From positions 1,330,903-1,394,902 of the forward strand of contig JAVSMP010000001.1 in assembly GCA_032027145.1 (NCBI GenBank): 64,000 bases of DNA. Direction: 5' to 3'. Within the stretch, counting starts at the first letter, position 1. Each line of letters begins with the position of its first letter. The translations under genes and the position numbers were made by a program. Source of the stretch: Ignavibacterium sp. (GTDB lineage: Bacteria; Bacteroidota; Ignavibacteria; Ignavibacteriales; Ignavibacteriaceae). This document shows positions 53,628 through 54,762 of this stretch, one piece after another. The notes beneath the pieces were generated by a model that saw nothing but the letters and a program-made list of their open reading frames with translations, was not told where the DNA came from and ran no database searches.

Positions 53628-53636
53628 ATGAATTTG

Positions 53637-53723
53637 CGGAGAGACAGGGATTCGAACCCCGGAAGGACTTGCATCCTTAACGGTTTTCAAGACCGCCGCA
53701 TTCAACCACTCTGCCATCTCTCC
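53637..53723 (-). tRNA. tRNA-Ser(UGA)
   Basis: Read on the minus strand, GGAGAGA (53723-53717) pairs with TCTCTCC (53644-53638), with discriminator G at 53637 and no encoded CCA. The anticodon arm GCGGT-CTTGAAA-ACCGT gives anticodon TGA. A long variable arm (TAAGGATGCAAGTCCTT) and TTCGAATCC T-loop are as expected for serine. Its 5' end is the junction point of the 323-bp repeats upstream. Confidence 0.96.
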
Positions 53724-53965
53724 GAATTATTTATCAGGCTCTTAAACGCCCTTCCCCCTTTGTAGGATTTAATTTGCTTTTCTCTTTCAAATGCAGTTGT
53801 TCTGGACGAATAATTTTCAACATAAATTAACGACCAGGGTGCATAAGCTTTTGTTGATACAACTTTTCCTAAATTATGCTCATCAATTCTTCTTTTAAGA
53901 TTTGATGTACATCCTACATAGAATCGTTCTGGTTTTTGACTCTTTAATATATAAACAAAATACAT
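53702..53965 (-). CDS. Small GIY-YIG nuclease, unit 1 (adjacent to the tRNA)
   Basis: A single-domain GIY-YIG nuclease of 87 residues from the ATG at 53965. The core is MYFVYILKSQ, FYVGCTSNLKRRIDEHN (GIY-YIG elements with catalytic Arg) and FEREKQIKSYKGG. The frame is open further upstream, but that part is tRNA-derived and not conserved. The last codons (ERWQSG) are read from the 5' end of the tRNA-Ser gene, where the stop also lies, so gene and tRNA overlap by 22 bases. GIY-YIG proteins nick or cut DNA; this free-standing class is common and poorly characterised. Confidence 0.8.
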   Translation of the reverse strand: MYFVYILKSQKPERFYVGCTSNLKRRIDEHNLGKVVSTKAYAPWSLIYVENYSSRTTAFEREKQIKSYKGGRAFKSLINNSERWQSG

Positions 53966-54030
53966 ATTAAGACCGCCGCATTTCCCGCCTAAGGCGGGAT
54001 AAACAACCTTTACCCCGCAATTATGCGGGG
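53708..54030 (-). repeat. 323-bp tandem repeat, unit 1
   Basis: Unit from the tRNA 5' end (ACTCTGCC on the plus strand, 53708) through the GIY-YIG gene to the hairpin before the next ACTCTGCC. It overlaps the last 16 bases of the tRNA gene on the plus strand. It holds a remodelled tRNA 5' half at 53969-54030. Confidence 0.92.
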
Positions 54031-54046
54031 ACTCTGCCATCTCTCC
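53969..54046 (-). pseudogene. Remodelled tRNA-Ser 5' half with two hairpins in the D-loop (repeated at +323 and +646)
   Basis: On the minus strand this reads tRNA-Ser nucleotides 1-16, a CCCCGCA/TGCGGGG hairpin, GGTTG, a TCCCGCC/GGCGGGA hairpin, then AATGCGGCGGTCTT, and stops matching the tRNA after T34 of the anticodon. The two inserts are 22 and 21 bases (54009-54030 and 53983-54003) and are flanked by TAAA/TTTA around GGTTG. Apart from these inserts the match to the tRNA gene at 53689-53723 is exact. Equivalent copies lie at 54292-54369 and 54615-54692. Confidence 0.85.
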
Positions 54047-54288
54047 GAATTATTTATCAGGCTCTTAAACGCCCTTCCCCCTTTGTAGGATTTAATTTGC
54101 TTTTCTCTTTCAAATGCAGTTGTTCTGGACGAATAATTTTCAACATAAATTAACGACCAGGGTGCATAAGCTTTTGTTGATACAACTTTTCCTAAATTAT
54201 GCTCATCAATTCTTCTTTTAAGATTTGATGTACATCCTACATAGAATCGTTCTGGTTTTTGACTCTTTAATATATAAACAAAATACAT
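54010..54288 (-). CDS. Small GIY-YIG nuclease, unit 2 (identical copy)
   Basis: Identical in DNA to unit 1 across the 323-bp repeat. It ends differently because the tRNA-derived DNA after it continues into the inserted hairpin: the tail reads ERWQSPRIIAG, giving 92 residues. The start matches unit 1 (ATG at 54288). Confidence 0.78.
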   Translation of the reverse strand: MYFVYILKSQKPERFYVGCTSNLKRRIDEHNLGKVVSTKAYAPWSLIYVENYSSRTTAFEREKQIKSYKGGRAFKSLINNSERWQSPRIIAG

Positions 54289-54353
54289 ATTAAGACCGCC
54301 GCATTTCCCGCCTAAGGCGGGATAAACAACCTTTACCCCGCAATTATGCGGGG
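54031..54353 (-). repeat. 323-bp tandem repeat, unit 2
   Basis: Reading the two stretches side by side I find no difference from unit 1. It begins with the tRNA-Ser 5' end sequence and ends with the palindrome CCCCGCA-ATTA-TGCGGGG. Confidence 0.92.
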
Positions 54354-54611
54354 ACTCTGCCATCTCTCCGAATTATTTATCAGGCTCTTAAACGCCCTTC
54401 CCCCTTTGTAGGATTTAATTTGCTTTTCTCTTTCAAATGCAGTTGTTCTGGACGAATAATTTTCAACATAAATTAACGACCAGGGTGCATAAGCTTTTGT
54501 TGATACAACTTTTCCTAAATTATGCTCATCAATTCTTCTTTTAAGATTTGATGTACATCCTACATAGAATCGTTCTGGTTTTTGACTCTTTAATATATAA
54601 ACAAAATACAT
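54333..54611 (-). CDS. Small GIY-YIG nuclease, unit 3 (identical copy)
   Basis: A third identical copy (92 residues, ATG at 54611), with the same tail as unit 2. It is the most upstream of the three on the minus strand and is preceded by a further 25-base copy of the tRNA 5' end. Perfect identity of all three copies indicates very recent amplification or an assembly effect. Confidence 0.78.
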   Translation of the reverse strand: MYFVYILKSQKPERFYVGCTSNLKRRIDEHNLGKVVSTKAYAPWSLIYVENYSSRTTAFEREKQIKSYKGGRAFKSLINNSERWQSPRIIAG

Positions 54612-54676
54612 ATTAAGACCGCCGCATTTCCCGCCTAAGGCGGGATAAACAACCTTTACCCCGCAATTATGCGGGG
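54354..54676 (-). repeat. 323-bp tandem repeat, unit 3
   Basis: Third copy without visible differences. It is followed by a partial fourth start of 25 bases (54677-54701), the same tRNA 5' end plus AATAATTC on the minus strand, then unique sequence. Confidence 0.92.
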
Positions 54677-54762
54677 ACTCTGCCATCTCTCCGAATTATT
54701 TTAAGAACAAATTTGCGTGGCAAATATAATCATACTTGCTGTTTCTGCAAACTCATTTTAGC

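Follow-up and report, generated by a model that had tools for sequence, protein, structure and literature searches.

Proteins of the I-TevI and Seg type typically carry a C-terminal DNA-binding part beyond their catalytic domain. SegB of phages T4 and T6 is a free-standing GIY-YIG homing endonuclease of the tRNA region (PMC13096335; PMC2988022). According to the T6 report, SegB cuts within tRNA genes and is required for the tandem amplification of a tRNA segment; this ladder-like amplification needs SegB catalysis together with the phage recombination genes, and the amplified tRNA-Tyr protects against Septu (PMC13096335). GIY-YIG open reading frames (ORFs) also occur in rRNA-gene insertions of Candidate Phyla Radiation (CPR) bacteria that are described as unlike any known intron (PMC11270868). 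Here we describe an array beside a tRNA-Ser gene in a 64,000-nucleotide stretch of Ignavibacterium sp. DNA (assembly GCA_032027145.1, contig JAVSMP010000001.1, positions 1,330,903 to 1,394,902 of the forward strand; hereafter the window). Its repeated unit is a small single-domain GIY-YIG gene joined to a partial copy of the host tRNA that has palindromes in its loops. It is likely that this cassette is a chromosomal selfish homing-endonuclease element that parasitises tRNA genes, re-forming the tRNA and expanding in tandem.

The genome of the window (G000; other genomes are numbered G0xx and fetched loci Lxxx) is one contig of 3,665,746 bp. The array abuts the 5′ end of tRNA-Ser(UGA), and its features are as follows:

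53636–53723, minus strand: intact tRNA-Ser(UGA) (ARAGORN), the sole full copy in G000 by whole-genome search
53708–54701, minus strand: tandem array of three 323-bp units plus 25 bp (Tandem Repeats Finder and exact period-323 run)
53708–54030, 54031–54353 and 54354–54676, minus strand: the 323-bp units, 100% identical copies
54677–54701, minus strand: 25-bp stub of the array (exact period run)
53702–53965, minus strand: GIY-YIG nuclease, tRNA-proximal copy, 87 amino acids, last codons and stop within the tRNA 5′ end
54010–54288, minus strand: GIY-YIG nuclease, middle copy, ORF extending into the next tRNA piece and hairpin
54333–54611, minus strand: GIY-YIG nuclease, distal copy, ORF extending into the next tRNA piece and hairpin
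53969–54046, minus strand: displaced tRNA-Ser 5′ half (bases 1–35) with two D-loop hairpins, copy 1
54292–54369, minus strand: displaced tRNA-Ser 5′ half with two hairpins, copy 2
54615–54692, minus strand: displaced tRNA-Ser 5′ half with two hairpins, copy 3, outermost and adjoining the host promoter region
53983–53999, also 54306–54322 and 54629–54645, minus strand: palindrome TCCCGCCTTAGGCGGGA
54013–54030, also 54336–54353 and 54659–54676, minus strand: palindrome CCCCGCATAATTGCGGGG
54695–54751, minus strand: two promoter-like sites (consensus match only)

An earlier note on this DNA had proposed three identical tandem units with a partial fourth, each beginning with tRNA bases 1–16 and holding a small GIY-YIG nuclease gene, and all of this is borne out by the repeat analysis, by the minus-strand sequence and by the Pfam match given below. 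For a perfect repeat of 994 bp, chance is excluded. Behind tRNA bases 1–16 each unit continues with the palindrome CCCCGCATAATTGCGGGG, TAAA, GGTTG (tRNA bases 17–21), TTTA, the palindrome TCCCGCCTTAGGCGGGA, tRNA bases 22–35, the start codon and the GIY-YIG gene. The note's "reworked" tRNA 5′ half needs correcting: the displaced half has not decayed at random, since bases 1–35 are all retained in each unit and both palindromes lie within the D-loop. The next-best whole-genome matches to tRNA-Ser(UGA) reach 76% and 70%. The two promoter-like sites are the only ones on the minus strand between 53600 and 54800 (nine on both strands, 3.5 expected), and the region probably represents the original tRNA promoter, because the sequence around the sites, compared by eye, recurs upstream of the empty tRNA-Ser of congeners. 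Because the cassette is flush against the intact tRNA and on the same strand, the cell retains a functional tRNA, and tRNA and nuclease are probably transcribed together. Beyond the nuclease frames, the only array ORF of at least 40 amino acids is a 45-amino-acid frame across the tRNA; no integrase or recombinase was found among these ORFs, unlike in integrase-bearing integrative elements that target tRNA genes.

A whole-genome nuclease search of G000 found three further identical nuclease copies at 1733.9–1734.7 kb, with 35% protein identity to the window nuclease. Here 3.1 identical 317-bp units lie against an intact tRNA-Pro(CGG), and in the displaced 5′ part TCCCGACAGGTCGGGA stands in place of the anticodon arm. 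That two distantly related nucleases in one genome share one design is the first sign of a system.

The window nuclease, of 86–87 amino acids, matches Pfam PF01541 (GIY-YIG) with an E-value of 5e-16 over residues 1–67. Y5, Y16, R26, H30 and E62 are invariant across 40 sequences, and the catalytic Tyr, Arg and Glu are thus kept. In the 87-amino-acid protein no second Pfam domain was found and the structure model (predicted local distance difference test score, pLDDT, 87.8) shows one last helix at residues 72–85; by both measures, a C-terminal DNA-binding part beyond the catalytic domain is absent. The best fold matches are UPF0213 (1zg2 at the top) and SLX1, and the closest solved structures in a profile search are again UPF0213 1zg2 and 1ywl (E 2e-13 and 6e-13) and SLX1 (1e-6), with I-TevI far behind. 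The likeness to both proteins extends over the GIY-YIG domain in profile and in fold. SLX1 works with a partner on branched DNA, and to our knowledge neither it nor UPF0213 has been described as a tRNA-linked tandem element. The NCBIfam model for group I intron endonucleases gave 19.7 bits, against a cut-off of 56 bits. In PHROGs the window protein had no match, and the tRNA-Pro array protein matched a GIY-YIG homing endonuclease family weakly (E 1e-5, first 32 residues).

Adjacent tandem copies differ at 72 of 614 synonymous and 39 of 2554 nonsynonymous sites, a ratio of nonsynonymous to synonymous change (pN/pS) of 0.13 when L017 (register error) and the frameshifted third copy of L014 are left out, and of 0.39 with both; this pattern indicates that the tandem nuclease copies are under purifying selection. 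Nuclease lineages keep to tRNA isotypes, with 37 changes among 109 proteins against 60.7 when shuffled (minimum 56), and they also follow polarity, the end of the tRNA at which they lie (20 changes against 30.5, minimum 25).

SegB, the nearest precedent, resembles the cassette as a GIY-YIG nuclease in a tRNA locus. Its motif RAWTSGAAC, read on the opposite strand, is the tRNA T-loop sequence, and SegB drives the tandem growth of the segment that carries it; in both, a nuclease locus bounded by tRNA homology is repeated in tandem. SegB is phage-borne and its repeated unit holds a full tRNA, whereas the cassette is chromosomal, holds only bases 1–35 in each window unit, leaves the intact tRNA single, encodes a bare catalytic domain of 80–90 amino acids and occurs at many isotypes. 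Because neither a full-tRNA unit nor an extra DNA-binding part was found, the cassette is placed with the free-standing homing endonucleases and outside the SegB family. Group I introns with GIY-YIG endonucleases likewise target tRNA genes, with insertion points that include the anticodon loop, but the cassette partly duplicates the tRNA rather than being spliced. A group I intron or other known RNA was rejected, as a permissive Rfam search of 12 and then 10 loci found only tRNA above the curated score. The CPR insertions share GIY-YIG ORFs in structured RNA genes but concern rRNA, and "tRNA" and "tandem" occur 0 times in the main text of that study (PMC11270868).

The design recurs widely. 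In the family, 70 of 80 genomes have a match at E ≤ 1e-6, and fetched loci show the design at tRNA genes for Ser (four anticodons), Pro, Asp, Arg, Leu, Cys, Val, Asn, Met, Ala and Gly. Two polarities exist: in one, a displaced 5′ part accompanies a nuclease that lies upstream of the intact tRNA; in the other, a displaced 3′ part accompanies a nuclease that lies downstream. The family loci were chosen from search matches, tandem and best first, and include all small-GIY places of six one-contig genomes; 20 further phylum loci were picked likewise, and eight Ser-type nucleases, used to scan named genomes, contributed the best 80 of 526 confirmed stretches, so that all samples are non-random. In the phylum, 111 of 392 genomes match at E ≤ 1e-12, and in 19 of the 20 further loci the GIY gene lies about 120 bp or less from a tRNA. 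Among the best 80 of 526, an intact tRNA is no more than 60 bp away in 64 cases, on the same strand in all 64, with the nuclease upstream in 56 and downstream in 8; ten others have a tRNA 65–593 bp away and six have none in the stretch examined. These 80 come from Ignavibacteria, Bacteroidota, many CPR lineages and Omnitrophota, with single records labelled Thermodesulfobacteriota, Neomarinimicrobiota and others, and are mostly metagenome bins. Phage and plasmid carriage were considered and rejected, such collections being nearly empty of the nuclease: 50,697 phage records and 72,556 plasmid records gave only three weak matches each, none spanning 80% of the query. One IMG/VR contig matched. 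In the titles, abstract openings and passages searched, a range outside which most subscription papers and bioRxiv fall, no description of chromosomal tRNA-linked GIY-YIG arrays with displaced tRNA parts was found, and we regard the cassette as a widespread tRNA-gene parasite undescribed in that literature.

One-contig relatives carry arrays of their own, with 3, 3 (one copy broken), 3 and 5 copies in G047, 3 and 5 in G035, and 2 in G043. The six one-contig genomes hold 34 small GIY-YIG places, counted with proteins of about 570–660 amino acids (UvrC-like ones among them) excluded and two L037 matches taken as one. Those at a tRNA lie mostly within about 100 bp of it, the tRNA-Val remnant of G000 being counted at 540 bp, and 9 of the 17 are multi-copy; one, L042, has no credible displaced piece. 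Of the places away from a tRNA, also 17, L012 alone is multi-copy, and it carries tRNA-Leu pieces. Where a tRNA or tRNA pieces are present, 10 of 18 places therefore hold an array, as against 0 of the 16 others (Fisher p 0.0004). In 20 of 21 arrays checked, L021 being the exception, the repeat runs 8–64 bp into the intact tRNA; in the window array the tRNA stretch shared by the displaced and intact copies is 16 bp.

Occupancy of the tRNA sites is polymorphic. At the syntenic tRNA-Ser site of six genomes of the genus, G000 has three copies, G040 one (in a draft assembly, where an array could have collapsed), G043 a relic with hairpins and no nuclease, and G041, G042 and G044 are empty. The syntenic tRNA-Pro site, found in five of the six (not in G044), holds three copies in G000, at least one in G042 (cut contig), relics in G041 and nothing in G043 and G040. 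The nuclease gene beside its putative target is thus present in some alleles and absent from others, and we infer that the tRNA gene is what the nuclease cuts. L012 (positions 944–1548; G035:C1 64.4–65.0 kb) is an off-site element: two tandem units of tRNA-Leu piece and GIY gene, with no tRNA gene, flanked by two exact copies of a 106-bp stretch beginning CCGGATGGTGA, like the tRNA 5′ end. Its hairpin also occurs in the displaced tRNA-Leu piece of another genus (L016), and the locus may preserve traces of how insertion occurs. Empty, relic, single and triple alleles, the second array and this off-site element sustain the suggestion of the earlier note that a small cassette uses the tRNA gene as its site. 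The comparison of empty sites that it called for gave, in the same genus, three empty tRNA-Ser sites beside occupied ones; a nuclease always fixed there, without empty or variable-copy alleles, was not found in this one genus, the G040 single copy being possibly a collapsed array. Its statement that the copies are "too alike to be old" holds for the copies, whose identity reflects recent expansion or homogenisation, and fails for the insertion: G040 has the element and G043 a relic, so the insertion probably predates those species.

The tRNA-Pro gene itself varies. Between G000 and G043, 288 of 299 upstream flanking positions agree, as does 92% of the first 400 bp of the flanking gene, which we take to be yajQ, but only 63 of 76 tRNA bases; between G000 and G042, 73 of 75 tRNA bases are alike and yajQ agrees at 81%. 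Two tRNA-Pro(CGG) allele classes (63/76 identical) are intermingled among the family's genera, and within the genus of the window their distribution conflicts with the flanking genes (loci L192–L199, L206, L207, L212, L213, L217 and L218). Because the alleles do not follow their flanks and both classes occur with elements in the family, the tRNA-Pro seems to have been exchanged as a unit, in one direction or the other, and the mixing suggests horizontal tRNA replacement. That G000 holds a foreign allele was considered, and is weakened by the family survey, in which the G000 class is common and that of G040 and G043 rarer.

The displaced pieces are marked by inserts. One or more inserts of at least 8 nt are present in 59 of 87 credible displaced tRNA pieces, and 55 of 72 inserts fall within a loop, 23 in the D loop, 21 in the anticodon loop and 11 in the T loop (expected fraction by position 0.39, p 7e-11). 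Among the 67 inserts of at least 12 nt, 42 fold more stably than all of 60 shuffles. These counts exclude the duplicate places L071, L073, L074, L086 and L093 as well as L024 and L054, where the match is a neighbouring full tRNA, and L023, L064, L143 and L148 are counted repeatedly. In nine listed 3′-type loci, two of which are one place (L056/L093), the T-loop insert lies exactly at GTTC^GA, a point inside the reverse complement of the SegB cut motif. This reverse complement, GTTCSAWTY, occurs in 191 of 320 tRNAs scanned, with overlapping loci recounted, and at 4 sites in the 64-kb window. In 19 5′-type loci checked, the hairpin module ends 9–32 nt before the nuclease start; in 3′-type loci the hairpins lie behind the nuclease.

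A two-hairpin module with a bulged A, R1, recurs in Ignavibacteria, CPR bacteria and others. Over 16 sequences 97.3% of its pair cells are paired and six pairs have changed on both sides (1 of 500 shuffles as high), with a covariation score of 0.277, compared with 0.111 for shuffles (0 of 500 as high) and no more than 0.09 after sliding; in one of the five measures, further pair types, the control was not exceeded (8 against 9.5 shuffled). Only one G-U stands among 221 pair cells. Because palindromic DNA would give the same pattern, these values show conserved pairing and do not establish an RNA function. R1 scores better inverted in 7 of 17 loci outside the training set, and some are nearly alike on both strands; these inverted scores lean towards a role in DNA. 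Among 30 R1 loci cut out, both a GIY gene and a tRNA were present in 19, a tRNA alone in 2 (one place), and neither in the other 9. In REP/RAYT systems, short palindromes are tied to an enzyme, a Y1 transposase. The likeness lies in the pairing of palindromes with an enzyme and in the fact that R1, in some genomes, also lies away from GIY and tRNA genes, where it resembles a REP element; the cassette differs in having a GIY-YIG enzyme and palindromes inside tRNA loops. A genome-wide REP origin of the window palindromes was rejected for the one tested, TCCCGCCTNAGGCGGGA, the second of the unit, which has no exact match outside the three units in the 3.67-Mb genome.

Hairpin-bearing arrays of tRNA pieces without a nuclease were seen at L008 (Val), L036 (Met), L056 (Ser) and L063 (Asn). 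At L036:1351–1770 (minus strand, tRNA-Met of G032), six tandem mini-units of about 73 bp, each made of tRNA-Met bases 1–21, a hairpin and bases 44–53, lie upstream of the intact tRNA. At L008:169–727, the tRNA-Val locus of G000 (C1, about 2977.07–2977.63 kb), there are 4.5 tandem 124-bp units of tRNA-Val pieces, in which the anticodon arm is replaced by CTCCGATATAATCGGAG; a truncated GIY-YIG remnant then follows, 540 bp from the tRNA and behind the tRNA pieces. The tRNA-Val locus of G043 (L031) has two full nuclease units with the hairpin of L008.

On the reading we prefer, of a selfish homing element, the nuclease would cut the tRNA gene where the allele is empty, in or close to a loop (step 1). 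Recombinational repair from an occupied allele, with the tRNA as homology, would copy the cassette in, re-forming an intact tRNA and leaving the old 5′ or 3′ part displaced (step 2). Hairpins in the displaced part would interrupt the site and prevent recutting (step 3), and tandem units would be added through the short tRNA stretch common to the displaced and intact copies, by recurrent breakage of the intact tRNA or simply by unequal recombination (step 4). The observations that speak for this reading are the architecture and its recurrence, the polymorphic occupancy, the off-site copy, the fidelity to isotypes, the purifying selection and the conserved pairing of the hairpins; the four steps are proposed to account for them. 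By analogy with SegB it is plausible that the nuclease drives this amplification.

Several points weigh against the selfish homing reading. Nuclease activity, cut site and transfer are inferred, no such event having been observed, and if the intact tRNA is a substrate, the nuclease would also attack its own host, barring protection by the allele or by its expression. Only 17 of the 34 small GIY-YIG places in the six one-contig genomes are at a tRNA. By alignment, 28 of the 87 displaced pieces have no discrete insert, some, such as L007, having an arm replaced instead. The anticodon within Ser is not clearly tracked by nuclease lineage (21 changes against 25.2 shuffled, minimum 20), and the nuclease tree rests on 85 columns and is well supported at 9 of 106 inner branches. 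The arrays without a nuclease mean that tandem growth need not depend on a linked one, and no consistent end-polarity of divergence was seen along arrays (the distal copy differs in L010, not in L013–L016). Growth at the tRNA end, tried as an explanation, was rejected on this last result. The hairpin role is the weakest point, as target immunity, control of nuclease translation and insulation of tRNA folding are all candidates.

A passive array, inserted once and then multiplied or homogenised by unequal recombination between tRNA repeats, with a nuclease that has no part in copy number, is a tenable if somewhat doubtful alternative. The 8–64 bp of tRNA shared with the intact gene would be sufficient for this, in the longer cases at least, and the arrays without a nuclease and the divergence without polarity agree with it. 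Set against it are the concentration of arrays at places with a tRNA or tRNA pieces, which tRNA repeats alone could also explain, and the need for SegB in T6 amplification (PMC13096335). It is rather unlikely that the hairpins serve regulation without target immunity, repressing translation of the nuclease or stopping the displaced and intact tRNA from mispairing in a common transcript. The position of the module shortly before the nuclease start in 5′-type loci and the sole minus-strand promoter-like sites ahead of the array fit such a role, and RNA hairpins repress translation of T4 homing endonucleases, segB included (PMC2988022). The better inverted scores of R1 are not favoured by a fixed RNA function, however, the hairpins of 3′-type loci lie behind the nuclease, and a single G-U in 221 pair cells fits a DNA palindrome at least equally.

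A system useful to the host, whose tRNA fragments or nuclease protect tRNA or cell, for example as decoys or as a tRNA supply against tRNA-cutting toxins, is very improbable. SegB amplification is adaptive in T6 (PMC13096335), and the tandem copies are under purifying selection, but the repeated unit has no full tRNA and the intact tRNA is single, unlike in T6, and the patchy empty and relic alleles together with the many isotypes fit a selfish element better. That an assembler triplicated a single unit is hardly credible. The three copies are identical and both G000 arrays have 3.1 copies, as such an error might give; against this, arrays of 3–5 copies in one-contig relatives (L010, L013–L016) have real differences, draft genomes show diverged tandem pairs (L017, L019–L022), and simple assembly duplication is disfavoured because the copies differ within arrays of the one-contig G035 and G047. 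More speculatively, and in our judgement with little likelihood, the cassette could belong to a separate class of mobile element, in which a nuclease resembling SLX1 and UPF0213, and lacking a sequence-reading domain, recognises secondary structure in DNA (the foldable arms of the tRNA gene and the conserved bulged-hairpin module), invades tRNA genes of nearly any isotype, leaves hairpin scars that make the displaced part immune, multiplies at its own break and can bring a replacement tRNA allele.

Environmental genomes repeatedly show small GIY-YIG genes next to tRNA genes. If they form one selfish system, as we favour, many lineages have tRNA genes that are being invaded, partly duplicated and, it may be, exchanged for others. 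This would matter for tRNA evolution, for breaks in assemblies at tRNA loci and for the question of how a nuclease coexists with the site it targets. A hairpin module common to distant bacteria makes target recognition testable, and the SegB work offers a direct assay.

Two further observations concern the pieces and the module. Hairpin-bearing displaced pieces at L023:1257–1341 and L024:1431–1506 are called as tRNA-Ser and tRNA-Phe by ARAGORN, and automatic tRNA counts may be inflated by such calls. In a scan that scored 150 first-look candidates in 15 of 16 genomes, R1 matches, with both strands counted, numbered at least 17 in G089, 9 in G087, 6 in G086 and 4 in G088.

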